58,225 nt of DNA, from positions 1 through 58,225 of the IMG/VR virus record IMGVR_UViG_3300018481_000025; one strand, 5' to 3'. The stretch comes from a virus. Each line of letters begins with the position of its first letter. The stretch's first letter is position 1. Positions 3,295-58,225 of the stretch are shown here, piece after piece. Both the position numbers and the translations under genes were made by a program. The notes beneath the pieces were generated by a model, which saw only the letters and a program-made list of their open reading frames with translations, was not told the DNA's origin and ran no database searches.

Positions 3295-3339
3295 GTGGTG
3301 TTCTCCCTGCTTGAAGCTCTGAATGTACATCATGCAAAA

Positions 3340-3369
3340 CCGGGGCCTTATATGAATATAAGGCCCCGG
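3340..3369 (-). terminator. Palindrome copy 3 with GC-extended stem; likely terminator
   Basis: The core CCTTATATGAATATAAGG (3346-3363) is extended outward by six further pairs (CCGGGG/CCCCGG in total), giving a 14-bp stem. On the minus strand it is followed by TTTTGC, as in an intrinsic terminator. It lies between the 3491-3727 gene and the winged-helix gene. Confidence 0.65.
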
Positions 3370-3378
3370 CGATCAGTC

Positions 3379-3426
3379 CCCGCCCACCACCGTCACGTTC
3401 CCTATTAAGGCACGGTGATGGGCGGG
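3379..3426. repeat. Imperfect inverted repeat
   Basis: CCCGCCCACCACCGT (3379-3393) pairs with ACGGTGATGGGCGGG (3412-3426) with one wobble pair, around an 18-base loop. It lies in the 120-base gap after the 3491-3727 gene, directly beside the palindrome terminator. Could be a second terminator, an RNA structure or an operator. The rest of the 3370-3490 gap shows no gene. Confidence 0.5.
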
Positions 3427-3490
3427 CCCTCGGCGTTCGGATCCAATCCAACGCGCAGTTGCGCGGGGGACTTGTCTATGCGCCGAAGCT

Positions 3491-3727
3491 CTACTCGACC
3501 TTGCCGGTGGCGTATGGCCTGCGGGCGATTGACCCGAGGTCAACCGCACGCGGACCGTTCTCCATGACAAGCTTGGTATAGGCGTGAACCACTTGGACGA
3601 CGCTTGAGGCATCGACGTCGATGGTGCGGGCCCGCCATTCTTCGAGCCATGTCAGTAGTGGCCACGGCTCGTCGCTCTCGTACATGGTGCGAGCCTGTGC
3701 CCGCACCTCGGTATGACCCATTCTCAT
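3491..3727 (-). CDS. Hypothetical protein, 78 aa
   Basis: Starts MRMGHTEVRAQARTMY with GAGAGGAGTACTCAA before it, overlapping the stop of the upstream gene by four bases. Helical protein with a Trp-rich patch (EPWPLLTWLEEWRA). No family recognised; last gene before the hairpins at 3340-3426. Confidence 0.6.
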   Translation of the reverse strand: MRMGHTEVRAQARTMYESDEPWPLLTWLEEWRARTIDVDASSVVQVVHAYTKLVMENGPRAVDLGSIARRPYATGKVE

Positions 3728-8384: not shown

Positions 8385-8867
8385 ATGGAAACTTGGAAAC
8401 CTATCAGAGGCTACCCCTATTCAGTGAGCGATCAAGGGAGGGTCCGAAATGACCGAACTGGTAGGATTTTAAAACCCAGTCCAAACACGGGTGGTTATCC
8501 TCACGTCATTCTTCACAACAAGGGCGACTATTGGGGGGCCCCAATTCACACACTGGTTCTGAAAACGTTTGTGGGTCCTCGGCCTCCGGGCAAAGAGTGC
8601 CGCCACCTCGATAGACAAAAGAGGAACAATCGACTAAACAACCTCTGTTGGGGGACGCGCCATGAGAACCGCATGGATCAGCGTCGCCACGGCACGGACA
8701 TGGCAGGTGAAAGAAACGGTCGGTCTGTGCTTACGGAGCAACAGGCTCGGAAGATCAAGCAGCTCATTCCGGTCTATGGGGTACGGCCCCTAGCGCGTCT
8801 TCTCGGATTGCCACGACATCTGGTGCACAACATTCACATTGGAATTTCTTGGAAACATCTTACTTAA
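8385..8867 (+). CDS. NUMOD4/HNH homing-type endonuclease
   Basis: 160 aa. Residues 1-45 match NUMOD4: W4-P-I-x-G-Y, YSVSDQGRVRN, ILKP, GGYPHVILH. Residues 50-95 carry the HNH core: HTLVLKTFVG (H55), CRHLD (H74) and NNRLNNLCWGT (N82, N85), the pattern of phage free-standing HNH endonucleases. The C-terminus (LTEQQARKIKQLIPVYGVRPLARLLGLPRHLVHNI) is a helix-turn-helix, probably for target recognition. Its base composition is less GC-rich than its neighbours and a 9-base direct repeat ATGTGAAAC (8221, 8880) brackets it, in line with arrival as a mobile gene. It likely nicks or cuts DNA to spread itself. Confidence 0.9.
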   Translation: METWKPIRGYPYSVSDQGRVRNDRTGRILKPSPNTGGYPHVILHNKGDYWGAPIHTLVLKTFVGPRPPGKECRHLDRQKRNNRLNNLCWGTRHENRMDQRRHGTDMAGERNGRSVLTEQQARKIKQLIPVYGVRPLARLLGLPRHLVHNIHIGISWKHLT

Positions 8868-32855: not shown

Positions 32856-34057
32856 TGGCTGACACGGCGTTTGATCCGAACCCACCACCTCAGATCACGC
32901 AAGGTCCCGGCGGCGAACGCTTGGTGTGGGACGGACGTGACTGGGTGCAGAGCGCCGTCGGTGCTGACACGGCGGCTCCTGCGGCTGGACCACCACCTGC
33001 ACCAGCGCCGACGTCCGCGCCGCCGCAACAGAACATTCAGTTCTTCCGGCAGGGTCAGCAGGAACCGATCGTCGTCCATCAGGGCGATGCGCAGTCCGAT
33101 GCACAGGGTGTTCAGACGAGACTGCCGCCACCGCCACCTCGGCCCGCGTATACGATCGACTTCGACGACCAAGCTGACTACGTACTGTCCCAGCAAAATG
33201 AATGGCAAGCCTACGACAAGAACGTGCTGTCGCATAAGACCGGCCGAGCCCAGCCCCTCCGTGTGACGGAGCAAGAGCATCCTGAATGGGGCAACTGGCA
33301 GTCGATTTTGGATGACTGGAATAAGCTCGATAAGCGCGAGCAGACGTCCGGCCGCCGGTACGCCATGGAGAAGCTGTACAATCGGATCCAGAGCGACACG
33401 AAGCGGGCAGAGGCAGAACTGCGGGAGAAGCGGCGGCAGGAGGCACATGGTCTGGATGCACCGCGCTTGACCCAAGAGGCCCGCGATAAGATCGGCACCT
33501 TGATGAGCGGCTACGTTGATCAGGAGTTCAACAAGACGAATGATGTGGCGACCCGACACTCTGACCCAGAGAAGAAGCGGCAGGCCGACTTCGAGCTGAA
33601 GACATCGCCGCTGACGACGATGAAGTACAAGGACCGCGACGGTAAGGAGAACCTCAATCCGTTGCGCGACGTGGTGACGTCAATCTCTCAACTGAATGAT
33701 GGCGTGTCGAACGATGCCATCGTGCGCTATACGCTGGGCATCGGTTCACCGGTCGGGTTCGACAAAGAGGGCAGACCGCTGCCGGGCATGAACGAAGTTG
33801 GTGGTCGGTACATCCGAGGCAAAGGTGCAACCAACTATAGGCCGCTCGGTCGTGACGCAGCCGACAATATAATCATTCGTATGGACGACGGTCAGGAACT
33901 GCGCATCCCACCGCAGGCCATGCGTCTTTTAGGCAAGGCGCGCGAGCAGGGTTACGAGAACGCCAAGCGGTGGATGGAAGACGACAAGAAGGCCCGTGAG
34001 CATAAGGGTCTTGGCACGCGCTTGCTGGAGCGGATCATTCCGCCGAAAGGCTTCTGA
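32855..34057 (+). CDS. Virion-associated protein (putative), 400 aa
   Basis: Start MADTAFDPNPPPQITQG at the TAATG junction. A Pro-rich N-terminus (about 1-95) is followed by charged helical text (EKLYNRIQSDTKRAEAELRE, KIGTLMSGYVDQEFNKTND) and a C-terminal alpha/beta segment (NIIIRMDDGQELRIPPQAMR). Located between an internal virion protein and the giant polyvalent protein, sharing TGATG with the latter. No family recognised. Confidence 0.6.
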   Translation: MADTAFDPNPPPQITQGPGGERLVWDGRDWVQSAVGADTAAPAAGPPPAPAPTSAPPQQNIQFFRQGQQEPIVVHQGDAQSDAQGVQTRLPPPPPRPAYTIDFDDQADYVLSQQNEWQAYDKNVLSHKTGRAQPLRVTEQEHPEWGNWQSILDDWNKLDKREQTSGRRYAMEKLYNRIQSDTKRAEAELREKRRQEAHGLDAPRLTQEARDKIGTLMSGYVDQEFNKTNDVATRHSDPEKKRQADFELKTSPLTTMKYKDRDGKENLNPLRDVVTSISQLNDGVSNDAIVRYTLGIGSPVGFDKEGRPLPGMNEVGGRYIRGKGATNYRPLGRDAADNIIIRMDDGQELRIPPQAMRLLGKAREQGYENAKRWMEDDKKAREHKGLGTRLLERIIPPKGF

Positions 34058-37000
34058 TGCGCAACAGGTTTGGCACGGCGCAGTATCTTTCGGGTGAGGT
34101 CTATCGCGACCCCAACCAGCCAGAAGAACCCAACAAGGATAGCCGCACGTGGACCGAGACGGCGATCGACACGGCGTCCGATTTCCTCGGTGCGGCTGCT
34201 ACCATCCCGCGTACGATCACGCATGCGATGCGTGCGGGCACTGCCTACCTGCCGGAGAAGACAGCGATACCGGGAACGCCGGGGGAAATCAGCGAGGTGC
34301 CCATCCCCGGTCAGGACGTGTTCGGAACGCCCGCTTCAGGTGTGATGCGCGATATCGACGTCGGCATGGGCGAGGTCGAGAAGAATATCAGAGACTGGCA
34401 GTCACCCTACAGTAAGGAGCTTGCTAAAGCATCTGTGCTGCCGGGCTACGGTGAGCGTAGCTTCTGGGATACGCCCTTCGCTTCAACTGGAAAGTTCCTC
34501 GCTGGCAGCGCCCCCTATGCAATACTTGCTCTAGCAACAGGCGGCGGCAGCCTCGTTGCGCAAGGCACAGGCGTAGCTGCTCAGGGCGTGTTTGGCCAAG
34601 CTGAAGGCTGGAACCAGCTGCAGGATTACACCGACCAGACACCGAGGGAGAAGCTCCTCAAAGACAGCCCGGTGTTTGAGGAGTACCTCCGGCAATACCC
34701 CGGCGATGAGAAGGCAGCCCGGCAGGCGCTGTACAACGATACGGTTGACCTCAAAGCGCAGTTCGCCAGCGGTATTGCTAATGCTGCCGAGTTCGGTGCG
34801 CTGCTCGACGGTCTTAACAAGTCGAAGCGCAGCCTCGCCCTCGGCATGGCGCGCTTCATTCCCGTCGTCGGTAAGTTCCTTCCTGCACGCGTTGGCAGAG
34901 CTGTCGGTGGTACGCTCGAAGGTGGGGTGTCAGGTTTTGCTGAAGGTGCAACCGACGCCTACATTTCGGAGCTGGCCAAGGTCCGCACCGGCGAGCAGGA
35001 AGCGATCAACGTCAGCGAGATCCCGAAGGGTGGCTGGCAGGGTGCTGGGTTCGGTCCGGGTGTGGGTGCATGGCATGCGATCGCACCGAGCCCGGTCAAG
35101 GAGTGGGACAAGGGCATCCTTCAGACGCTGGGCAGTCAGATCAACGGCGGCACGACACAGCAGCAACCGGCACCGGGACAAGGGACGCCGCCTGCTGGTG
35201 GGCCGGGTGCACCGCCACCGGGCGGACCCGCAGGAGCGCCCGGCGCTATGCCGCCGGGCGGACCGGGTGCTGCACCACCGGGCGGACCGACGCCGGGTGG
35301 TGGGCCGACACGTCGGCGCGGTCCGGTCACTGACGTCGAGGATACGTCAGGCCAGCCAACGGCACCGCTGGTAGTACCCGGCCGTCAAATTCGGCCTGAA
35401 GAACTTGGGGTCGAAACGGGACAACAGGCAGCGGCACCACTCGATCGCGCACCACCGATGCCGGACGACTTCGTGCCGGAGGGTGATCCTGCCTATCAGT
35501 TCACGACCGGCAAGGGGTCGCGGTACTGGCACTTCGACGACAACACGACGGTGCGCAACAAGGCTCCTCGGCCCGAGCATCCCGGCGACCAAGGGTTCAA
35601 GGCCAAGTCAGAGACGACGTTCTACGCCAACGAGGACCATCTCAACCAGATGGGCTCGCTGATGCAGGCGACGTCCACCTTCGGCAAGGTGATGGCGCAG
35701 CACCCGAGGACTGGCCAGTGGGGTGTGATGTACACCAGCGGTCCCAGCAAGGGTAAGTGGGAACGCCGCACGATGGGTACGGTGTCGACCGAGCCTCAGG
35801 TCGGCCTGTATCCGGTCGAGACTTGGAACCGAGGCAAGCGCTTCCACTTTGGCAATGCGATCACTGAGGTGAAGCCGCTGCGAGCGGCTGCACCGGCTGC
35901 TGCTGCGGGCGCTGCTGCCCCCGCCACCCCTACAGCGCCTGCGGCGGCAGCCCCTGCACAGCCTTATATGGATATAAGCTCGCAGGAAGTTGGTCCGCCG
36001 ACCCAGCCCGCTGGACCGGCAACGTGGGCAGCAGGTGACTTCCAGTACGACGTTGAGGTTACGCCTGCTCCACCGGAGCAGGGCCCTGACGGTCGCATGT
36101 ACCAGCAGGTGCTGCATGAGGGTCAGGCTCAATGGGTGCCTGCCGATGAGCTGACAGCACGCGCCGACAGATCACGCTCGGAGAGCCCGGAGGTCGAGAA
36201 GGCCCGGCGTGCCTTCGAGCAGCACGAAGGGCGGGCGTCGGCGCAGCAGATGCGTCAGGCGGCGTGGCAGCAGGAAAGCGACCGGCTCTACAACGCTTGG
36301 AAAGAAGCGGAGATGGAGGAGCGGCGCGAAGGCGCTGGCCTGCCCCGCAAGTCGCCGGTCGCGCCGAGGAGCGTGTCGGCCAAGGCGCTGACCAAGGATC
36401 AGATCCTCAAGATCCGTGCCGGTATGGCGGTGCTTGACCCTGACACCCGCCGTGCTTTCGCAACTAACCTGCACCGCAGGCAGAGCGCGACGCAAGACGT
36501 CGACCGCCACAGCATCCCCGAGTGGATGAGCGCAGAGGGCGGACCGCTCACCGACAAGCAGTATGCAGCGCTCGCCAATGCGCTCGACAATAACCCGGAT
36601 CAGACGATCGAGCTGATCGGGCAGCGGCCGTTCGAGACGACCCGTGAAGGTGTGCAGGAGCACTACACGCAGCGCGTCGCCGAGAGGAAAGAGGCAGAGG
36701 CAGAGGAAGCACAGCAAGCAGAGGAGGCTACGCAGCGCGCGAGAGGTGAGCGGCGGCCCAGTGCCGACGTCACCATACCAGACCTTAAGCGCCCGCCCCG
36801 GCGAGTGACGGCCGAACTCAATACCGAGATGCAGGCGCTTGAGGCGTCGCTGCGCGGCTATCAGGTCAACCGCAAGCAACAGACGCCGCAGCGCTGGCGC
36901 GCTCTACGCCGCCGGGCCGAGCTGATTGACCGTGAACTGCAAGCCCAAGGTTTCCAACCACGCTTCGTCAACTGGCTGGGCCCGGCACCTGCCGAGACGG

Positions 37001-40000
37001 TGCGGGCAGCTGGCATCACCGGGCCATCGCTGGCGGCGCGCGAGCAAAAGCAGGCGTTTGAGAAGACCAAGCGACGGCTACGGCGACCGAAGACGTCGGT
37101 CAGTGAACGGGTGCTGCAGCGTCGGCGGAACAACCTTGCCAACGACATTGCCGCGTTCAATGAAAAGCTTGGTACGCTGTCTGATCCGAAAACCGGCACG
37201 TTGCACTTACGGCGACCGGCGGCACGAGCCGAGCGGCAGGCGCTGCTCGACCGCATTCAGAAGCTGGGCGATCCCGACAACATCATGTCTCGTGCCTTGC
37301 TTGACCTAAAGCCGGTCGCAACGCCGACGGAACGGTTCAATCAAATTACCAACCAACTGGAGGCGATGGGGCACCTGTCGTCGTTGGAGTTTGTGCGCTC
37401 CCCGCAGGTCTATGATTTGCTGACCGAGATGCAGACAATCAATGCGGAGCGCGAAAGGACGAGCCGTCAGCCGCTCCCCGTTCCGGCTTGGCTGCAGAAG
37501 AAGATCAGGACGGGTCAGGCTCGGGCCCGCCTGCCGAAGCCGGTCAATGAAAATATCCAGCGTCGTTACGAAACGGCCCGCAGCTGGTACATGCAGCGCA
37601 TGTCGCGGGAGTGGCAGGAGGTTATTCAAGATAACGCTCCTACTCCGGTCTACGACTTCCCGCGCCCCGGTGGTGAGGAAGCGCAGCTGCCTGAAGGCAC
37701 CAAGCTATCTGAGTTTACACCTGCCGGGTTCCGACGCGTCCATGATGTGCGGTGGGATCCAGAAGAGAAAGCGTGGGTACCTAAGGGAGAAGGTCGTTGG
37801 CAGGCCAAGGGTGATTGGGCAGGCAGGGTTGCCAACATTCCCCGGCATCAGGGTGAAGTGACAACCGAGACGGCTGAGCCGCAGGCGCGTAAGTGGCAGG
37901 CCAAGCCGCAGATTTGGGATCCGAAAAGGGAAGTCTGGCGGGACATGTACCCGCGCGAGTTTGACATGCGCAGGCAGCTGCTCGACGTCAAGCCGCTTCC
38001 GCTGGCGGATGCAGAGCAGCGAGCGGCCGAGGAAAGGTACGCGCAGGCATATCTCGCACGGCGTGAGGCGGCAGCACGGCAGCGTGCCATCGAGGGTAAG
38101 CCACCGCTTGTCGGCAAGGAGAAGCTGCCGACCCTGCAGGAGATGATCGAGAAGTTCCGTAAGGGTCGCTACAAGCGGAGCCGCAGCCAGCAGGCCACCG
38201 ACCTCAAGGCGGACTACTATGTAGACCGAGAACTCGAATACAGGAATTCCATCTGGACGCAGCTGAAGCGCAGCTTCGGCGGCCCGGAGAAAATGCAGGC
38301 GTTCCTGATGGAGTTGATGGCAGTCAGCGCACGGCGGTTCCCAGCGCAGCCAGAGGAGCTACGGCACCGTGCCGTCGCCGAGAAGGGCCGCCAGCTCGCC
38401 ATCCCGATGACGCCTGAAGAAGCCGTCAACATCGAGCTGTACGGCACACCTGCTCAGATGAAGGAAGCGGAGCAGCTGGCGCTTAAGAAAAGTGAGCGGA
38501 ATGTTTTCACGATCAGGCAGGCGCAACAGGCCCGCCCCGAAACAGTGGCAGAGCGTGAAGCCCGTGAGCTGGCTGAGTTTACCGGGGAAGCCAAGCGTGC
38601 TCGTGCAACGGCAGCACCGAAAGTCAGCCAATTTGTATTGAACAAATATCATGAGGAGGTGGACGCCTACTACGTAGCCAAGGAAAAGCAGTATGCCATG
38701 ACGCGGCGGCTGCAGAAGTTCCTCGACGATGCGATTGCCCGCACGCAGAAGGACATCCTTAGCTTTACGAAAAAGAACAACATCACGGCAGGTAGAGGCC
38801 AAGGATCTATCAATTGGCTGCTGCCTGAGCCCAAGCGAGAGAGGCGTGAGATCCCCGGCCTTGCCCAGATGACGAAAGAGGAGGCAGAGGTAGCGATTGC
38901 CGCGTCGATCATGGAGGTGATGAACAAGAAGCAGTACGCGGTCGGCGTCAATAACCCACGCTTCGACTGGTACAACATTGCCACCGACATGCTCAAGTTG
39001 TCGGAGACATTGCGCCACGCATTGGCGGGTGCCGCTCCGGCGTTCGATGCAAAGCTGAAAATCCGTGACCAGTTCACCGGCGAAGACGTCACACGGTTTG
39101 GCACGGGGGTGTTGCCGCAAGACATAGCCCGTCGCTATCTGGTACCGCTCAGTGCCACCCGCACATCGTCCGGTCTGCTGGCCGACTACCTGCTCGACCT
39201 GCACGCGATGGCCAACCTCGACTTGGATACGATCCGCTACGGTCGCAAGCTGCGGTCGGAGGCGACGACGGATCGCTACACCGAGGCAGGCATCCTCGCT
39301 GGTGTCGAGGGCGAGCTGGCACAGGAACGGCTCGACGAACTCATTGCCCGCCAGTCCGACCTGCCCGAGCAGCTGCTGCTCGGTGGGTCGAAGGCAATGA
39401 CGACCAAGGAAAAACCCGACGATCAGGTCGTCCAGAATATCTACGAGCAGCAGCTCAAGGACCAGCAGGAGGAGCGTGAGCGCCTGAAGAAGCGCGGTGA
39501 CAACCGCACCTTGGATGAGATCCGTCAGGAGCAGGCAGAGGCGCTGGCCAAGGAGTTCCCGTTATCTAACACGGCGGTTGGCGGCGTAGCTCCTCGACGG
39601 CCGTTCACTGGCGTCGCGCGCAAGACCGAAATGAACAGGCCGACCCGTGTGCTGACGGATGCGCAGTATGCCAAGTACGGACGACGGGTGGGCATCGGTG
39701 ATGTCGTCACGCCTGCGATGGAGACGACCAAGGGCGACTATATGATCGACCCCAAGGGTCGTATTTACCTGCTGAAGGATAGTCACCCAGCGACCTTCAC
39801 CGCGATGGATCGTGAGGCAGGCTACGACGTCGACAACGAAGAAAGCCTCTATACGACCGGCGACAATCCGTTAGTGCGGGTGTCGTCGTTTACCTATCAT
39901 CCCGACGCAGATGATCCGGCAGGCACTGACTACAATCATTCAGTCAACGTCGAAGCCTACAAAGGCGGCGTAACGCGTGCACAGAAGACTACCATCGACC

Positions 40001-43000
40001 GCATTCGGGCGGCAGCCAAGGAAGCTGCCCGTGAAGGTTGGAACGTCAACCATACTGAGGAAGTAACCACCGACTACGGCGGCAACTACTACGTTAACAT
40101 GGATGCCGTCACTATTACGGATGAGCCCTACCGGGGAATGCCGCTCGATGGCGACATAAGCAACATCGAGGTCGTCGATGGTCGTGGCTTGCCGATCAAT
40201 CGCCTGCGGCCTCGGCCACCGAGTGTACGACGTGGCCGCGACGAGTACGGCGTCGACCGTTGGAACCCGTCTCGCGAATACGAGGTGATGGACGAGGCGT
40301 ATAACGAACTCGCCGCACCGGGTGAGCCATCGCACCCGCTGATCTCGACACCTGAGACGACCCGCGATGCCCTCGAACGGCTGAGCGATATGGTGAACAC
40401 GGGCGAGGTCGGGAACCTGCCGAAGCAGTATATCTCACCACGCCTGCTCGACCAGCTCGCTACCATCACCAGCGGCACCAGCCTCTACCACGCGCCGTAC
40501 GATGCCGTGAGCAACGTCGGCAACACCGGACCCGGATACTACGATATCAGCACCGACCGCATCAGCGTGTCGTCTGACGTCCACCCGGAACTCTACGCCC
40601 AGACCGTTCTGCATGAGGTTGGCCACGCTGCCACCAATGCACTGCTGACAAGCGATGTGCGGTTCGGCGAGACGATGCGTGACCTTCTGGTCAAGGCGGT
40701 GACTAAGGCAGGTGATGATGGTGTCAACCTCAACCGGTTGCCCGACCATCTCTACGGCCTGACAGGCGTCCACGAGATCATCCCCGAGATGATGGCGAAC
40801 CAGCGGTTCCGTGACTTCCTGCAGACGGTGCCGTCAGGAGAGCATCCGGTTATTACTGGTGCGAAGAACGTCGCCAACGCCATCTACCGCGCCATCCTCG
40901 ACGCTTTCCGTCGCGTGATGGGTACGTACAATGGGAAGACTGCCCTCGACATTCTGTTCTATGACCAGTCGACGGTGCTCGGCAAAGCCGACCGCATGGT
41001 GCAGAACAAGCTCAAGAAAATGGAGCGCACTGGCCGTCCTGCCTACTCGCCGGTCGACGTTCAGCAACGGCAGTTCCGGCCGGGCATCGAGGTGCCGGGG
41101 TCGAACCGTCTTTACCTCGGTGCCGGAGCCAAGGCGTTCGCCGCCGACATGGCTGAAGGCTTTGGCCGAGCAGGCAGCCGCATGGGCTACCACCTGCAGT
41201 CGGCCGTCAAAGGCGACAAGGTACGGGCGCGCGGTCTGGATTGGATGACCACCTCCGACATGACGCAGATTGGCTCGGAGGAATTCCGTCGTCTGTCGGA
41301 GAATGCGTTCGAGACGATGGAGAAAATCTTCGCGCTGGGCAACGAGCTGCGTGACAAGGACCGCAAGGAACTGAAGGCGATCGCTGACATCTACAACGGC
41401 TGGAGCAAGGAAGCCCGGCAGGACGTTGCGGCATTCTCGATCGACCTCACCATGCATGGTGCCTTCACGGGTGAAGTCGTGCGCGGCCGGTGGACCCCCT
41501 ACTCGCTGATCCACAGCAAGAACCGGCATGTCGACCCGACCAGCATCGCATGGGAGCAGGTCGTCCAAGAACACAAGAAGATGCAGGACCGCCACGTCGA
41601 CCTGCGGCAGCTGCCAAAGTTCGATGAGTTCCTCGATCGCATCCTGAAGTTCGGCGAGCAGCACGAGGAGCAGATCCGCAAGGCCCGCCTGCGCGATCTG
41701 ATCAAGTTCTCCAGCTTCATCCCCGACAACATCGTCGAAGGCACGCCCGAGCATGCACGGCTGGTCGATGCGCTGGAGCGGCTGATCAGCCTTGAACCCC
41801 GACGTGACGTCAACGGCAACATCATCGGCATGAACTTGGCGTATATCCAGCGCAAGCTCAGCCCTGCCGACGTTGCGCTCATCCAGCAGCATGTCGACCT
41901 GACCGATGAAGTGACCAAGGAGCTGATGCGGGACCTGCACAAGGTGCCCGACATTCAGAAGCTGCAGGGTCCGTATCTGCCGCTGACCCGGCAAGGTGAC
42001 TGGGCGCTGTCGGGTGAGTTCACCCTGCCTGCCGCACCCAACGGCTTCCAGCTGCACGGTGACGTCAACCGCCTGACCGGTGCGCCGATCGACGAAGGCA
42101 AGGTGGCGTTCCGCACCAAGGATGAGGCCAAGGCGTACGTCAAGAAGGTGACGGAGGAGCTGGGCATCACCCAGACTGACGGCGGCGAAGTCTGGATCGA
42201 CATGGACAGCGGCCAACGTCCAAGGGTGCGCGGCTTGAAGCCGCCGAGGAAGAAGCAGGCGACGCGCGACCCGACCAAGAAGGCAGCACGGGCTGGTGAA
42301 AACCTCGAAGCAGAAAATCTGGCGCTGGCGACCGACAAGCAGATCCAAGACCTGATCGACCAAGGCGCGAACATCCAGAAGGTCTACTGGGTGCAGTTCC
42401 AGCGCAAAGTACTGACGATGCACGCCAACGAGTACGAGGCGCAGCAGGCATACGAGGGATGGCGGCGGCCGGTGAAGGAGGGCGGGCGGGGCATGACCGA
42501 GGCCCAGCTCAAGCTCACCGAGCCCAAGGACGTGCTGCAGTACGACGCCCGGCAGAACGAGCAGTACGTCTCGACGGCGATGCAGAAGCTGATCAACCAC
42601 ATGCGCCAGTCGCCTGCCTACAAACGGCTCGACGCGGCAGCGCAGTCAGCACTGACCCGTGTGATGACGTTGGCATCGGAGACTTACGCCATGCGGCGCG
42701 GCGTCAAGCAGCGCTACCTGCCGCGCGGCTACGTCGAAGGTGCATCGCATAACATCCTGCAGTCGCTCGACGACTACTCGGCGATGGCGACGCACTACGA
42801 GGCAAAGGTCGAGCACGCCAGCGAGCTGGCTAACACCACACGGGCACAGAAGGAGTACATCACCAGCCGTCCATACGAGAGCGGCGACCGCAACACGCTG
42901 GCTCATCAGCGTGTCTACAACGCCATGCAAAAGCGCATTCACGCGCCCAAGCAGAACCCGCGCGACACGATGCTGAACCGCAACGTCGACCGGGCACTGC

Positions 43001-44637
43001 GCTGGACCATGCTCGATAAGCTGCCAAGCATCGGCTACTTCACCGCCAACGCCACACAGGCATGGGCGGTAGCCGCGCCGCTGATGATGGGTCGACACAG
43101 CCCGCTGCGCGTCGCCTCGACGATGTGGCAGATGTACAAGATCTTCGGCCTCACCAAGATGCTGAGAAACGCAGGCCATGATCTGGCGCAGGCCATCAAG
43201 CGCGGTGAGAACAAGGTCGACTACCTCGTCGAGATGACCAACGCGGTCAATGCGTCGAAGCTGTCGCCGGAGCGTAAGGCTGGCCTGATCGCTATGCTGG
43301 AGAAAGGTGCCAAGCGCGGTGCGTTCGACCGCAGCGGCAGCATCGAGTATCAGGGCGGCTTCGCCGACAATCCCAACATGGTCGACCGTGCTGCCGACTG
43401 GGCACAGGGCGTCTTCCAAGGCGTCAACAGCTCGATCGAGGCGATGAACCGGTTCGTCACCTTGGCGACTGCCTACTCGCTGGAGGCTGACAAGGGCACG
43501 GCCCACGACGAAGCGTCGCGTTACGCCTTCCGCATTACGCACAATTCGAACGGACAGTACGCCAACTACAACGCACCGGAACGGTTCAATACCGGACCGA
43601 TCGCCCGCATGCTGTTCCAGTTCAAGAAGTTCCCCCAGATGCTGGCGATGAACTACATCCGGGGAGCACAGGGTGTGATCGGACTGGTGCGTGGTGAGCG
43701 CACGGCGGAGAACATCGAGCGGGCCCGGCAGCTGGCGGCACTGCTGGCGGTGCAGTTCCTGCTGGCCGGTGCGCTCGGTATGCCGACCGAGCTGTTCGCC
43801 ATCCCGATCAACACGCTGCACTTCTTGGGCTTCATCAAGTACAACACCAACGATATCTCCGCTGGCTTCCGCCAGTGGGCCGCCGACAAGTTCGGTGTGA
43901 CCGGCGGCGTCGCCGTTTCGCACGGTATGCTCGATGCTCTGACCGGCCTCAGCATCTCGTCCCGCCTCAGCCAGTCATCGGTGCTGACGTCGGGTGCGGC
44001 ACGCACAACCAAGCCGCAGGATATCAACGGCATGCTCGGAGCGTTCTTCTTCGGTGCCACCGCCAGCACCGGCATCGAGCTGGCGCAGGCGTCGCAGCAT
44101 CTCAATCAGGGGATCACGGCGCTGAGCCAAGGTGCGGACGACGTGGCCGTCCATCAGTTCATGAAGTTCGGCGAGAAGGTCGTGCTGTTCCGCACCTTCG
44201 CTGACGTCATGGCGGCGTCCAATGGTTTGACCCAAGAAGGCATGCGTGGTCCGTCCGGTCGTCAGCGGCAGGAGACCTACGGACCCTTCGAGTTCCTCGC
44301 CCGTGTTGCCGGGTTCCGGCCGCTGCGTGAGGCGGAGAGTGTCGAGGGTGCGATGGCGATCCGCAGCGCCACCGACCGCATCAAGGCCGAGCGCAAGGCA
44401 TTCAGCGATAACTGGGCGCGCTCGACGTCAGCCCAGCAGCAACAGATGTGGCCGACCATTCAGGAATGGAACAAAGGTAGACCGCCGGAACATCAGCTGA
44501 CCCGCAGCGAGCTGCTGAGGGCAGAGGCGACGCGGCTCAAGGCGGAGAAGCAGCCGCTCAAGGATCTCGGGCTGGCGACCGACCGGCAGATGCGGCCGTT
44601 CCTGCCGATGGCCAAGGCGTACGCGACAGGAGGTTAA
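34057..44637 (+). CDS. Giant polyvalent virion protein with zincin metallopeptidase motif
   Basis: 3526 aa, about 18% of the window. Visible regions: weakly hydrophobic stretch 150-178; Gly/Pro linker 365-425 (PPGGPGAPPPGGP); Ala/Pro linker 612-640 containing a dispersed palindrome; long charged helices about 680-1130; zincin-type HEVGH at 2186-2190 with a downstream HEIIPEMMAN (H2239, E2240, E2244) as possible third ligand; helical C-terminal region 2970-3270 (NATQAWAVAAPLMMGRHSP; ITHNSNGQYANYNAPERFN; RMLFQFKKFPQMLAMNYIRG) of the kind seen in large polyvalent phage proteins (LPD38 type, from memory), with a hydrophobic stretch at about 3225-3259. Such proteins ride in the virion and are ejected into the host. 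No RNA-polymerase motifs found. Confidence 0.8.
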   Translation: MRNRFGTAQYLSGEVYRDPNQPEEPNKDSRTWTETAIDTASDFLGAAATIPRTITHAMRAGTAYLPEKTAIPGTPGEISEVPIPGQDVFGTPASGVMRDIDVGMGEVEKNIRDWQSPYSKELAKASVLPGYGERSFWDTPFASTGKFLAGSAPYAILALATGGGSLVAQGTGVAAQGVFGQAEGWNQLQDYTDQTPREKLLKDSPVFEEYLRQYPGDEKAARQALYNDTVDLKAQFASGIANAAEFGALLDGLNKSKRSLALGMARFIPVVGKFLPARVGRAVGGTLEGGVSGFAEGATDAYISELAKVRTGEQEAINVSEIPKGGWQGAGFGPGVGAWHAIAPSPVKEWDKGILQTLGSQINGGTTQQQPAPGQGTPPAGGPGAPPPGGPAGAPGAMPPGGPGAAPPGGPTPGGGPTRRRGPVTDVEDTSGQPTAPLVVPGRQIRPEELGVETGQQAAAPLDRAPPMPDDFVPEGDPAYQFTTGKGSRYWHFDDNTTVRNKAPRPEHPGDQGFKAKSETTFYANEDHLNQMGSLMQATSTFGKVMAQHPRTGQWGVMYTSGPSKGKWERRTMGTVSTEPQVGLYPVETWNRGKRFHFGNAITEVKPLRAAAPAAAAGAAAPATPTAPAAAAPAQPYMDISSQEVGPPTQPAGPATWAAGDFQYDVEVTPAPPEQGPDGRMYQQVLHEGQAQWVPADELTARADRSRSESPEVEKARRAFEQHEGRASAQQMRQAAWQQESDRLYNAWKEAEMEERREGAGLPRKSPVAPRSVSAKALTKDQILKIRAGMAVLDPDTRRAFATNLHRRQSATQDVDRHSIPEWMSAEGGPLTDKQYAALANALDNNPDQTIELIGQRPFETTREGVQEHYTQRVAERKEAEAEEAQQAEEATQRARGERRPSADVTIPDLKRPPRRVTAELNTEMQALEASLRGYQVNRKQQTPQRWRALRRRAELIDRELQAQGFQPRFVNWLGPAPAETVRAAGITGPSLAAREQKQAFEKTKRRLRRPKTSVSERVLQRRRNNLANDIAAFNEKLGTLSDPKTGTLHLRRPAARAERQALLDRIQKLGDPDNIMSRALLDLKPVATPTERFNQITNQLEAMGHLSSLEFVRSPQVYDLLTEMQTINAERERTSRQPLPVPAWLQKKIRTGQARARLPKPVNENIQRRYETARSWYMQRMSREWQEVIQDNAPTPVYDFPRPGGEEAQLPEGTKLSEFTPAGFRRVHDVRWDPEEKAWVPKGEGRWQAKGDWAGRVANIPRHQGEVTTETAEPQARKWQAKPQIWDPKREVWRDMYPREFDMRRQLLDVKPLPLADAEQRAAEERYAQAYLARREAAARQRAIEGKPPLVGKEKLPTLQEMIEKFRKGRYKRSRSQQATDLKADYYVDRELEYRNSIWTQLKRSFGGPEKMQAFLMELMAVSARRFPAQPEELRHRAVAEKGRQLAIPMTPEEAVNIELYGTPAQMKEAEQLALKKSERNVFTIRQAQQARPETVAEREARELAEFTGEAKRARATAAPKVSQFVLNKYHEEVDAYYVAKEKQYAMTRRLQKFLDDAIARTQKDILSFTKKNNITAGRGQGSINWLLPEPKRERREIPGLAQMTKEEAEVAIAASIMEVMNKKQYAVGVNNPRFDWYNIATDMLKLSETLRHALAGAAPAFDAKLKIRDQFTGEDVTRFGTGVLPQDIARRYLVPLSATRTSSGLLADYLLDLHAMANLDLDTIRYGRKLRSEATTDRYTEAGILAGVEGELAQERLDELIARQSDLPEQLLLGGSKAMTTKEKPDDQVVQNIYEQQLKDQQEERERLKKRGDNRTLDEIRQEQAEALAKEFPLSNTAVGGVAPRRPFTGVARKTEMNRPTRVLTDAQYAKYGRRVGIGDVVTPAMETTKGDYMIDPKGRIYLLKDSHPATFTAMDREAGYDVDNEESLYTTGDNPLVRVSSFTYHPDADDPAGTDYNHSVNVEAYKGGVTRAQKTTIDRIRAAAKEAAREGWNVNHTEEVTTDYGGNYYVNMDAVTITDEPYRGMPLDGDISNIEVVDGRGLPINRLRPRPPSVRRGRDEYGVDRWNPSREYEVMDEAYNELAAPGEPSHPLISTPETTRDALERLSDMVNTGEVGNLPKQYISPRLLDQLATITSGTSLYHAPYDAVSNVGNTGPGYYDISTDRISVSSDVHPELYAQTVLHEVGHAATNALLTSDVRFGETMRDLLVKAVTKAGDDGVNLNRLPDHLYGLTGVHEIIPEMMANQRFRDFLQTVPSGEHPVITGAKNVANAIYRAILDAFRRVMGTYNGKTALDILFYDQSTVLGKADRMVQNKLKKMERTGRPAYSPVDVQQRQFRPGIEVPGSNRLYLGAGAKAFAADMAEGFGRAGSRMGYHLQSAVKGDKVRARGLDWMTTSDMTQIGSEEFRRLSENAFETMEKIFALGNELRDKDRKELKAIADIYNGWSKEARQDVAAFSIDLTMHGAFTGEVVRGRWTPYSLIHSKNRHVDPTSIAWEQVVQEHKKMQDRHVDLRQLPKFDEFLDRILKFGEQHEEQIRKARLRDLIKFSSFIPDNIVEGTPEHARLVDALERLISLEPRRDVNGNIIGMNLAYIQRKLSPADVALIQQHVDLTDEVTKELMRDLHKVPDIQKLQGPYLPLTRQGDWALSGEFTLPAAPNGFQLHGDVNRLTGAPIDEGKVAFRTKDEAKAYVKKVTEELGITQTDGGEVWIDMDSGQRPRVRGLKPPRKKQATRDPTKKAARAGENLEAENLALATDKQIQDLIDQGANIQKVYWVQFQRKVLTMHANEYEAQQAYEGWRRPVKEGGRGMTEAQLKLTEPKDVLQYDARQNEQYVSTAMQKLINHMRQSPAYKRLDAAAQSALTRVMTLASETYAMRRGVKQRYLPRGYVEGASHNILQSLDDYSAMATHYEAKVEHASELANTTRAQKEYITSRPYESGDRNTLAHQRVYNAMQKRIHAPKQNPRDTMLNRNVDRALRWTMLDKLPSIGYFTANATQAWAVAAPLMMGRHSPLRVASTMWQMYKIFGLTKMLRNAGHDLAQAIKRGENKVDYLVEMTNAVNASKLSPERKAGLIAMLEKGAKRGAFDRSGSIEYQGGFADNPNMVDRAADWAQGVFQGVNSSIEAMNRFVTLATAYSLEADKGTAHDEASRYAFRITHNSNGQYANYNAPERFNTGPIARMLFQFKKFPQMLAMNYIRGAQGVIGLVRGERTAENIERARQLAALLAVQFLLAGALGMPTELFAIPINTLHFLGFIKYNTNDISAGFRQWAADKFGVTGGVAVSHGMLDALTGLSISSRLSQSSVLTSGAARTTKPQDINGMLGAFFFGATASTGIELAQASQHLNQGITALSQGADDVAVHQFMKFGEKVVLFRTFADVMAASNGLTQEGMRGPSGRQRQETYGPFEFLARVAGFRPLREAESVEGAMAIRSATDRIKAERKAFSDNWARSTSAQQQQMWPTIQEWNKGRPPEHQLTRSELLRAEATRLKAEKQPLKDLGLATDRQMRPFLPMAKAYATGG
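35962..35978. repeat. Dispersed palindrome copy 11, inside the giant gene
   Basis: CCTTATATGGATATAAG in frame in an Ala/Pro-rich linker, read as PYMDIS at about residue 636. Confidence 0.8.
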
Positions 44638-55772: not shown

Positions 55773-55964
55773 CTATTGCTCGCCCCGCATTGTCTTTCGA
55801 CCATGTAGCAATGCGTCATGCACGATCCAACGAATGATCTCAGCAGCTTTCGCAGGGTCGGGGTGTTCCTCGCCCATATAATTTTCGACGGCTTCCAGCG
55901 CTGCCATAAGACGCACTACCGTCTTGAGCAACCCGCTTTCCGTCCAGTACGAACCGCTATCCAT
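55773..55964 (-). CDS. Hypothetical helical protein, 63 aa
   Basis: Starts MDSGSYWTESGLLKTVVR. Mostly helical (TVVRLMAALEAVENYMGEE, KAAEIIRWIVHDALLHG). No family recognised. Overlaps the upstream nuclease stop by eight bases. Confidence 0.65.
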   Translation of the reverse strand: MDSGSYWTESGLLKTVVRLMAALEAVENYMGEEHPDPAKAAEIIRWIVHDALLHGRKTMRGEQ

Positions 55965-56685
55965 TTAGTCCTTTCCCGTGGTACTCGCACGCCGTCACAC
56001 CACAGTGCCGCTTGCACAAGCCGGACGGACGGGGCGGAAAGTGGTCATTGACGACTGCACGATTGAGCACCCCGGCAATCTCGTACATCTGCGGGGCGAA
56101 TTCGCGCAGATCCTCCCGCAGCATGTCGAACGCGGTCGAGGTGTCCTCGTTCAGGTAGACGTATTTGCTGGTGACGTTCCGTACCTGCGGGAAGTGCAGG
56201 AAGATCAGCAAGGCGGTGAGGCGCAGCTGGAAGTTGGGCGGTAGCAGGGCGTATCGGGCATCGGGCTCCTTGCCGGTTTTCCAGTCGATGCTGAGCGCGT
56301 GCTCGCCGTTCACCACCAGCATGTCGGCCTGTGATCGCAGCCAAACCTTCTTCTTGCGATCGAAGTACTCGCAAGGCTCCAGCCCGAACGTGCAGGCCAT
56401 CTTGTATTCGGCGAATACCCGGTCGCCGGGCTGCCGCTCCGGCACCCACTTGGCGTAGTGCTTGGGGATCGCCGTGCCGTTCTCGATGAAGTCGGCCATC
56501 GCCTTATGCACGCGGAACCCTTCCCGCATGTTCTCATTCTCGGGTTCCTTGATGATCTTGGCGATCTCGTAGGCGTGGAACTTACGCGGGCAATTGTAGA
56601 ACTTGTCAGCCTGCGAGAACGACCAGTGCCGTCGTTCGACGATCGGCCGACCGGTGCTATCCGTGCGCGTTAGAGTGTTGTCCAT
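55957..56685 (-). CDS. Cas4/RecB-like PD-(D/E)xK nuclease with Fe-S cysteines
   Basis: 242 aa. WSFSQADKFYNCPRKFHAY (residues 21-39) is the typical start of Cas4/AddB-like nucleases. Nuclease residues: H60 (FRVHKAM), D121 (QADML), D134 and K136 (SIDWKTG), Q153. Four Cys suit a 4Fe-4S cluster: C32 at the front and C224, C228, C233 at the end. Such phage proteins act as 5'-3' exonucleases in recombination; some Cas4 relatives affect CRISPR acquisition. Here it stands in the replication cluster. Confidence 0.85.
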   Translation of the reverse strand: MDNTLTRTDSTGRPIVERRHWSFSQADKFYNCPRKFHAYEIAKIIKEPENENMREGFRVHKAMADFIENGTAIPKHYAKWVPERQPGDRVFAEYKMACTFGLEPCEYFDRKKKVWLRSQADMLVVNGEHALSIDWKTGKEPDARYALLPPNFQLRLTALLIFLHFPQVRNVTSKYVYLNEDTSTAFDMLREDLREFAPQMYEIAGVLNRAVVNDHFPPRPSGLCKRHCGVTACEYHGKGLNG

Positions 56686-56881
56686 TGGATACCTGCCGCA
56701 TCGTGTGTTCGGCGTTCTTCTCGGCGTGGAAACTGGTGAAGTCGGAAACCGAGATCAGGATACGCCCGCTCGGTCTATGTCGCCATCTGTAGTGGCTCTT
56801 TGTTGTCTCGCCGACAAACTCAAAATCGTACCTCGCAGCCATCTCCTTCAGCGTTCTCAGTACTTTGGATTTGCGGGCCAT
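56657..56881 (-). CDS. HicA-like small basic protein (putative)
   Basis: 74 aa, starts MARKSKVLRTLKEMAARY with AGGAGGAACC. The layout helix (KVLRTLKEMAARYDFEFV), strand with SHYRWRHRPSGRILISVS and helix resembles the dsRBD-like HicA fold. HicA toxins use a His in this place (here H30 or H34). No HicB-type antitoxin is nearby, so a toxin-antitoxin pair is not supported; it may be a phage RNA-binding protein. Overlaps the Cas4-like start. Confidence 0.4.
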   Translation of the reverse strand: MARKSKVLRTLKEMAARYDFEFVGETTKSHYRWRHRPSGRILISVSDFTSFHAEKNAEHTMRQVSNGQHSNAHG

Positions 56882-56927
56882 GGTTCCTCCTATCTACTAG
56901 ATATGGTATCAAATGGGAACTTTCAAG

Positions 56928-57212
56928 TCACGCCTTATGCGTGAGCTGATCCTGCCGAACAGGCTCGACAATCTGCCAGTCATCGGACAGCAGGTCGGCA
57001 TGACTGCTGCAGTAGGGCATCAGGCCGTCATACTCGGTCTTGATCCACAACGACGGCTCAACGCGATAGCCGCCGCCATACTTGTGTGGCACCTGCATCC
57101 CAGCGTCGGGCACCATGAAGAGCCAGATCTTGTCAGGCCAGCTATTGCGCCTGACATTCTTGCCCAGCTTCAGATTGAACAAGGCGTCTTCAAAACTAAT
57201 TGGCTTAGGCAT
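56928..57212 (-). CDS. Tad2-like (DUF2829) anti-Thoeris candidate
   Basis: 94 aa. ISFEDALFNLKLGKNVRRNSW (5-25) and the C-terminal PYCSSHADLLSDDWQIVE (66-83) match the DUF2829 pattern (FxxALxxLKxGKxVxRxxW ... SxxDLLxxDW). Tad2, the Thoeris anti-defence protein 2, belongs to this family and sequesters the 1''-3' gcADPR signal. The middle (MQVPHKYGGGYRVEPSLWIK) is where ligand contacts lie in known structures. Co-encoded with a DUF3309-like peptide and a HicA-like protein. Function not tested here. Confidence 0.75.
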   Translation of the reverse strand: MPKPISFEDALFNLKLGKNVRRNSWPDKIWLFMVPDAGMQVPHKYGGGYRVEPSLWIKTEYDGLMPYCSSHADLLSDDWQIVEPVRQDQLTHKA

Positions 57213-57369
57213 GAATAGCTCCGAGATTACCCGTCAGCCACAGGATCAGCAGGATGATGAGGACGAGGCCGACGACGCCCCCCAACCCGTTGTAGCCGTA
57301 CCTGCCGTAGCCCCAGTAGCCGCCACCGAACAGCACAAGCAAAAGCAAGATGATAATGATCAGGGTCAT
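57205..57369 (-). CDS. DUF3309-like small membrane peptide, 54 aa
   Basis: Starts MTLIIIILLLLVLFGGG with AGGAGGTTGCA. Two hydrophobic segments flank a Gly/Tyr loop (GGGYWGYGRYGYNGLGG), the layout of DUF3309 peptides common in phage and bacterial genomes. It is next to the endolysin gene and could serve in lysis (spanin or holin-like), but the family has no proven function. Overlaps the Tad2-like start by eight bases. Confidence 0.75.
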   Translation of the reverse strand: MTLIIIILLLLVLFGGGYWGYGRYGYNGLGGVVGLVLIILLILWLTGNLGAIHA

Positions 57370-57378
57370 TGCAACCTC

Positions 57379-57816
57379 CTAGAGGGCGAAGCACTCATTA
57401 CGCGGTTCACCTTCACAGAGCCCAACATGGACCCAGTGTGCACCTCCACCCGTCTCGTCGATCAGCTGATCAATTTCGAGATCGGCAAGGTGAGGCGTGA
57501 CGGCAATGCAGATGTCAGTCGGCGTGCCGTAGTCGGGAATGACGATATCGGCCGCCAACCCATACCGATGGGCGCTGTCAGCGACCCCGCCCACCTCCTC
57601 GTTTAGTGCTTCGCAGCGGTAGCCGGAGTTCACGATCACGGGGTAGCTGCCACACAGTACGCGGATTTCCTCCAACACATCACATAGGCGCTTGAGATTG
57701 GCCTCGATCTCGGGCGGCGGCGTGTTGTCGATGCCGCAGGCATTGGCGGTATCGGAGTGGCACATCTCGGCCAAGGTGAAATGCTCAGTGAGATACCCCT
57801 CGGGCAGCTCGCTCAT
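57379..57816 (-). CDS. Peptidase M15-type endolysin
   Basis: 145 aa from MSELPEGYLTEHFTLAEM. Matches the M15A pattern: EHFTLAEM..SDTA...GIDNTPP, then VNSGYRCEALNEEVGGVADSAH split at 62-83, zinc ligands H83 and D90 (SAHRYGLAAD), and a third ligand H130 (HWVHVG). It hydrolyses the peptide stem (D-Ala containing) of peptidoglycan for lysis or entry. No signal peptide, so release would need a holin. Confidence 0.88.
   Translation of the reverse strand: MSELPEGYLTEHFTLAEMCHSDTANACGIDNTPPPEIEANLKRLCDVLEEIRVLCGSYPVIVNSGYRCEALNEEVGGVADSAHRYGLAADIVIPDYGTPTDICIAVTPHLADLEIDQLIDETGGGAHWVHVGLCEGEPRNECFAL
57674..57685 (-). promoter_or_regulatory. ATGTGATGTGTT motif copy 5 (inside the endolysin gene)
   Basis: Exact 12-mer coding for part of RLCDVLEE; may be chance. 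Confidence 0.2.
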
Positions 57817-57982
57817 GGGCTTGCTCCTCTTTGATATGGTCAAGGGCACGCTGGGCTTCGTCGAGGACATACATGGCCTCGGCGAACATCTTGCCCTTCT
57901 GCTTCTCACGCGCAAAATTGACCGCCGCCTGAGCCATGCGGGCGTGTTTTTCGAGGGCGCGGATCAGAAGGCCGTAGTTCAT
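57785..57982 (-). CDS. Hypothetical helical protein, 65 aa
   Basis: Starts MNYGLLIRALEKHARMAQ. Helical throughout (EAMYVLDEAQRALDHIKEE) and probably forms a hairpin; ends RGVSH. Overlaps the endolysin start by 32 bases. No family recognised. Confidence 0.65.
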   Translation of the reverse strand: MNYGLLIRALEKHARMAQAAVNFAREKQKGKMFAEAMYVLDEAQRALDHIKEEQAHERAARGVSH

Positions 57983-58103: not shown

Positions 58104-58225
58104 TCACTTACAATCCCCGTAGCGCTGTCCGACACCGCTCTCGACGTCGAGCGGCAGGTCGGATGCCCATGATGGTGGGCGTCGCATCTCCAGCTCCACC
58201 CACATCTTGGCGTGTTCTATATTTG
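58104..58225 (-). CDS. DNA polymerase I-type (family A) C-terminus, partial
   Basis: Minus-strand frame entering from the right edge; last 40 residues NIEHAKMWVELEMRRPP then SWASDLPLDVESGVGQRYGD and stop. The end pattern (M..A..L..P..W...LPL.VE.GVG..WG..K) matches the extreme C-terminus of family A DNA polymerases of phages. The bulk is outside the window. It would be the replicative polymerase working with the prim-pol/helicase and SSB-like proteins downstream on this strand. Confidence 0.6.
   Translation of the reverse strand, partial: NIEHAKMWVELEMRRPPSWASDLPLDVESGVGQRYGDCK

Follow-up and report, generated by a model that had tools for sequence, protein, structure and literature searches.

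The window, a stretch of 58,225 nucleotides of viral DNA, carries a gene for a real, divergent member of the Tad2-like family (PF11195, DUF2829) that has the Tad2 fold. In our judgement the chances are slightly better than even that this is an accessory gene for a nucleotide-signal sponge of that family whose pocket has been remodelled; when this reading is pooled with its canonical rivals, sponge function of some kind appears fairly likely. There is nothing unusual in a phage Tad2 homolog; it is the altered pocket, together with a position in a genomic slot that holds sponge genes, that sets the window protein apart as a variant.

A Tad2-family gene and its predicted fold

The gene is an intact minus-strand open reading frame (ORF) with an ATG start, an included stop codon and a CGGAG motif 5' of the ATG (Table 1). 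Its composition is coding-like (GC1/2/3 0.56/0.38/0.74), unlike that of an antisense ORF at 56913-57218 (0.71/0.37/0.56). The intact ORF and its composition speak against a plain pseudogene, which we rejected; a relic is retained only within one of the rival readings below.

In a profile search the protein scores 52.4 bits against the PF11195 cut-off of 25 (E 7.9e-14), and both motif blocks on which the initial annotation had based its family assignment are present (FEDALFNLKLGKNVRRNSW and SSHADLLSDDW), so that assignment stands. Among PDB sequences, phmmer found ModTad2 as the best match (3.1e-5), followed by SPO1 Tad2 (8.0e-5) and, weakly, HgmTad2/AcrIIA7. A pattern search of IMG/VR yielded no close relatives of the window protein, and a helicase query likewise yielded none.

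The initial annotation had also proposed a comparison of the predicted structure with Tad2. AlphaFold2, given an alignment of 74 sequences that left out rows from public phage records, produced a single-chain model with a pLDDT of 87; prediction from the single sequence reached a pLDDT of 40 only. The model consists of a helix (residues 7-15), four strands (19-22, 30-34, 54-58 and 64-66), a second helix (71-75) and a final strand (79-82). All 24 Foldseek matches in the PDB with E <= 0.001 are Tad2/AcrIIA7 chains, led by SPO1 Tad2 (TM 0.73, E 1.4e-7), and ModTad2 with hisADPR has a TM of 0.69 to the model. The confident structural matches are therefore confined to the family that had been named.

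Table 1. Features of the window in and around the polymerase-exonuclease slot
Feature	Position	Strand	Evidence
RecB-like PD-(D/E)XK exonuclease, conserved slot flank	55957..56685	-	PF12705 55.6 bits; phrog_69
Conserved 74-aa gene, slot boundary on exonuclease side (earlier 'HicA-like')	56657..56881	-	homologs in L285, L286 and G001, same place
Tad2-like (PF11195) protein, 94 aa	56928..57212	-	PF11195 52.4 bits; AlphaFold2 pLDDT 87; PDB fold match to SPO1 Tad2 and ModTad2
Codons 67-75 (YCSSHADLL), β4-α3 loop and helix α3, replacing WLASQTDLL: W67Y, Q71H	56988..57014	-	column counts
Codons 23-29 (NSWPDKI), β1-β2 loop, replacing xGWNGKGM: G24S, N26P, G27D	57126..57146	-	column counts, 76 relatives
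DUF3309 small hydrophobic peptide, 54 aa	57205..57369	-	PF11752 36.1 bits, cut-off 22.3
M15 peptidase (endolysin-like)	57379..57828	-	PF08291 65.1 bits; phrog_894 endolysin 1.8e-34
Conserved 65-aa slot gene orf57785	57785..57982	-	L285 homolog 41% over 54 aa
Family-A DNA polymerase C-terminal end, conserved flank, cut by window end	58104..58223	-	67% over 39 aa to G001 polymerase

A hypervariable slot between polymerase and exonuclease genes

The genome is podovirus-like, with a terminase, a head-tail adaptor, a major head protein and a 3526-aa PLxRFG protein. The last is the product of the phage's largest gene, a single ORF at 34057-44637, and has its PLxRFG (tail-700) domain near the C-terminal end. 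In its major capsid protein the phage shares 71% identity with Rhizobium phages RHph_TM3_14A, TM27A/B and TM29, and up to 91% with IMG/VR contigs. The window is a linear record whose right end falls inside the gene for a family-A DNA polymerase; the related polymerase of phage G001 matches PF00476.

The Tad2-like gene lies in a slot between this polymerase and a RecB-like exonuclease, which bears out the accessory position on the replication strand that had been ascribed to it. The window's own slot comprises orf57785 and genes for an M15 peptidase, a DUF3309 peptide, the Tad2-like protein and a conserved 74-aa protein. We located 80 IMG/VR loci with an exonuclease alignment, and 69 of them have the order polymerase, slot, exonuclease, with 180 to 3764 bases in between. 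The content of the slot is hypervariable, differing between phages. When we scanned 134 slot ORFs from other phages against Pfam, the matches besides sponges were mainly to families of nucleotide metabolism (dGTP diphosphohydrolase, deaminases and MazG) and to DUF4406. Because most of these ORFs match no Pfam family, the slot can be mined for further anti-defence genes.

Two small neighbours of the Tad2-like gene had been named in the initial annotation. The DUF3309-like peptide is confirmed (Table 1); its gene is preceded by a strong AGGAGG, and its 3' end overlaps the start of the Tad2-like gene by 8 bases. A tblastn search of phage and plasmid collections gave no match to the peptide, and its gene is probably host-derived and rare in phages. 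The HicA-like identity of the other neighbour was dropped, since the 74-aa protein has no match in Pfam, PHROGs, NCBIfam, PADLOC, PDB sequences or phage records, and no HicB lies alongside. This small, basic protein is conserved (homologs at L285:3778-4026, L286:3781-4020 and L087:15623-15862), and K-x-H and (S/T)GR motifs are common to the four homologs. The K-x-H motif could reflect a remote relation to HicA.

Two sponge families in the slots of sister phages

The window forms an inner group with L285, L286 and G001, the three loci whose exonucleases are closest (55-60%). In all four phages the 74-aa gene overlaps or abuts the start of the exonuclease gene, and in all four the slot contains a gene of a sponge family. 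In L285 an orf57785 homolog lies directly upstream of a canonical Tad2-like gene, which scores 83.2 bits and is followed by the 74-aa gene. In G001 (the same as L287, capsid 88% identical) a single Acb2_Tad1_hairpin protein (30.0 bits, cut-off 27) precedes the 74-aa gene. In L286 an M15 gene is followed by a gene whose product shares 63% identity with the G001 sponge, by further ORFs and by the 74-aa gene.

The scores behind the Acb2/Tad1 assignment are weak, near the cut-off of 27 bits for G001 and below it for L286, whose protein alone reaches 17.6 bits on Pfam. When the proteins of G001, L286 and G041 were combined into a profile and compared with strong Acb2/Tad1 members, hhalign gave a probability of 96.7%, which supports the predicted assignment. 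Among the other 66 slot loci, sponge genes occur only in L302 (51.6 bits) and L363 (67.2 bits). The slot hairpin proteins lie at L087:15944-16366, L286:2342-2794, L302:3284-3532 and L363:3709-3933; those of G001 and L286, at 140-150 aa, are longer and represent a divergent type that scores close to the Pfam cut-off.

The strongest pointer to function is that the slot accommodates sponges of two different families. As sister phages carry either Tad2 or Acb2/Tad1 there, sponge function is supported independently of the window protein's own similarity to Tad2, although the four inner-group phages are related and so do not represent independent events. Phage Tad2-like proteins are now often named anti-Thoeris on the Pfam name alone, and a different sponge family in the slot of a sister phage is a stronger argument for sponge function than such a name.

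Related phages carry sponge genes at several sites, namely near the terminase, beside the primase or in the polymerase-exonuclease slot. Among 50 related records, PF11195 occurs in four (G005, G008, G025 and G033) and PF24729 in six (G001, G019, G021, G035, G038 and G041); no record has both, and zero overlap is expected by chance at such counts. In the terminase-side region where related phages carry Tad2-like genes, the window has a free-standing, homing-type HNH endonuclease with a NUMOD4 motif (8385-8867).

M15 genes also recur beside sponge genes. The Tad2-like gene adjoins an M15 gene in G005 and L120, and in the window only the DUF3309 peptide gene intervenes. Endolysin-like M15 genes near sponge genes (57379-57828 in the window, L120:2972-3385, G005:52502-52888, L286:1625-2194 and G008:13823-14278) lie at varied sites, as if the two kinds of gene travelled together or shared insertion sites.

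Altered residues in the pocket loops

According to a review (PMC12043709), the gcADPR pocket of Tad2 is built from the β1-β2 loop, the β3-β4 loop and strand β4 of one protomer, and from the β1-β2 loop, the β4-α3 loop and helix α3 of a second. Placed on our model by the review's loop description, these elements correspond to residues 23-29, 59-63, 64-66, 67-70 and 71-75. We compared the window protein with 76 relatives at the positions that are at least 90% conserved among them. It keeps 11 of 16 such positions and loses G24 (95% conserved), N26 (95%), G27 (96%), Q71 (92%) and W67 (76 of 76), all of which belong to the β1-β2 loop or the β4-α3/α3 region (Table 1). A hypergeometric count for this clustering gives 0.005; as adjacent positions do not vary independently, this figure is only a rough guide. 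The search pattern itself accounts for part of the conservation around residues 70-79, but has no such effect on positions 24-27 and 67. The scaffold residues R22, W25, D73, L75, D78 and W79 are intact.

Four of the five lost residues (G24, N26, G27 and W67) are found in every solved Tad2 protein, and Q71 is not universal in that set, being V in ModTad2. The initial annotation had called the gene a candidate anti-Thoeris protein and had extended to it the binding of 1''-3' gcADPR by Tad2. Family, fold and the sponges in the slot strengthen the anti-defence part of this proposal; the loss of these four residues from the pocket loops leaves the extension to that ligand unsupported. The pocket has likely been remodelled or, possibly, lost. 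With the loop residues changed, we can assign none of gcADPR, His-ADPR and cyclic dinucleotides as the ligand, which probably differs from those of SPO1 Tad2 (gcADPR) and ModTad2 (His-ADPR).

A canonical Tad2 would bind 1''-3' gcADPR (or His-ADPR) despite the substitutions and defeat type I or II Thoeris. ModTad2 and SPO1 Tad2 are indeed the best sequence and fold matches, and their β2-β3 segment, at 23-24 residues, is similar to that of the window protein (18 residues), which also has no cyclic-dinucleotide insertion. Both proteins, however, keep the four pocket-loop residues that are lost here, and we consider this reading unlikely.

The same segment bears on a sponge of the HgmTad2/AcrIIA7 type directed against CBASS. 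Such a protein would belong to the same fold family, but HgmTad2-type proteins bind cyclic dinucleotides by means of an insertion (PMC12043709), with 36-42 residues in the β2-β3 segment of SptTad2 and HgmTad2, and SPO1 Tad2, which also has no insertion, does not bind 3'3'-cGAMP (PMC11722364). As the insertion is missing from the window protein, we set this kind of binding aside as very improbable.

In a tree of the family, the terminal branch of the window protein is long (1.87, compared with a median of 0.24). Its neighbours, with weak support (SH-aLRT 87), are the L112 protein and the G005/G008/L120 proteins, in which N26 is also lost.

Chromosomal relatives

PF11195-type proteins of about 73 aa are also encoded in the chromosomes of Firmicutes (Enterococcus, Vagococcus, Oceanobacillus, Gracilibacillus and Sporosarcina), at loci among L193-L266 (e.g. 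L229:5222-6646, L194:5259-6593, L249, L193 and L200). In all 12 loci compared, a gene for an SDR oxidoreductase directly follows, and in 9 of the 12 a QueT queuosine-precursor transporter gene is nearby (PF06177 confirmed in three). No preQ1 riboswitch was detected near the 12 loci at the gathering threshold, and our literature search found no paper that names both a PF11195-type protein and queT. These proteins do not have the loop residues of the sponges, with GW[SGP]G in the first loop and F at the position of W67. The branch may be a cellular relative of phage Tad2 sponges, and it is unlikely to be anti-phage. Since PF11195 includes this branch beside queT, the family is broader than phage sponges.

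The window protein might accordingly be no sponge, and instead either a pocketless relic or a PF11195 protein with another role, for example a metabolic or small-molecule one, as beside queT. Such a role would suit a protein that has lost pocket positions on an intact scaffold, that sits on a very long branch and that resembles the chromosomal proteins in its changes. We nevertheless think it improbable: the intact ORF has a ribosome-binding site and the composition of a coding sequence, sponges are retained in the slot of related phages, and the GWNG loop also varies in other Tad2-like proteins of the phage group.

Defence signalling on the host side

The nearest cultured relatives of the phage infect Rhizobium; tRNA genes, which might have pointed to a host, were not found. 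Of 289 genomes that we sampled from the class to which Roseicyclus belongs (Alphaproteobacteria), 44 encode ThsB-type TIR proteins, so TIR signalling is present in Alphaproteobacteria. Few of the sampled genomes have either of the two classical Thoeris effectors, macro-domain ThsA (ThsA_Macro) being found in two and STALD ThsA in one, which is a further argument against the canonical reading.

Proposed function and its implications

Under the remodelled-pocket reading that we prefer, an accessory gene of the replication region would supply a divergent Tad2-fold protein that most likely works as a sponge, sequestering stoichiometrically a nucleotide immune signal that the host makes during infection. 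The captured signal would probably be of the ADP-ribose type and come from a TIR enzyme. It would be held in interprotomer pockets built by the β1-β2 and β4-α3 loops, so that an infection-aborting effector would stay off. For the window protein itself we infer the oligomeric state, ligand binding, the anti-defence effect and the time of expression. The slot of the gene would be an exchangeable one, occupied in sister phages by sponges of the Tad2 or Acb2/Tad1 kind.

A more specific version, in which the remodelled pocket binds a signal bound by no known Tad2 and the slot exchanges Tad2 and Acb2/Tad1 sponges, is tentative and on present evidence rather unlikely. Binding of a new signal, if it occurs, would suggest a signalling defence, so far undescribed, among the hosts of this group of soil podoviruses. 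As binding loops can be rebuilt, the ligand has to be measured.

Comparison with known systems

ModTad2, from a Myroides odoratus prophage (PDB 8v3e, and 9eib with hisADPR; L223:5001-5255), has family, fold and length class in common with the window protein, to which it is 34% identical, and like it has no cyclic-dinucleotide insertion. It keeps GWNGKGM and W67, whereas the window protein has SWPDK-I and Y67. SPO1 Tad2 (gp34.65; PDB 8sme, and 8smf with 1''-3' gcADPR) is of the same family and fold at 33% identity, and keeps GWNGKNM, W67 and Q71, all of which are altered in the window protein. Sponges of the SPO1/ModTad2 type are homotetramers with two pockets between protomers; by binding gcADPR or His-ADPR they allow phages to evade Thoeris. 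Our model of the window protein covers a single chain.

HgmTad2/AcrIIA7 and SptTad2 (PDB 8kbi, 8kbj and 8wjd) belong to the same fold family; they have the long β2-β3 insertion for cyclic dinucleotides as well as GWNGKGM, and the window protein has neither. Another predicted PF11195 protein of a rhizobial podovirus is P015 of Sinorhizobium phage AP-20-A (about 95 aa), which is reported to be 50.5% identical to ModTad2, as against 34% for the window protein; the core genes of AP-20-A are reportedly closest to those of Paenibacillus podoviruses (PMC13299392). In the equivalent slot, the PF11195 protein of L285 (IMGVR_UViG_3300046683_000390, 3337-3561) is 32% identical to the window protein and has a shorter middle segment, with canonical GWNGKGMW and PWLCSQTD where the loops of the window protein are altered.
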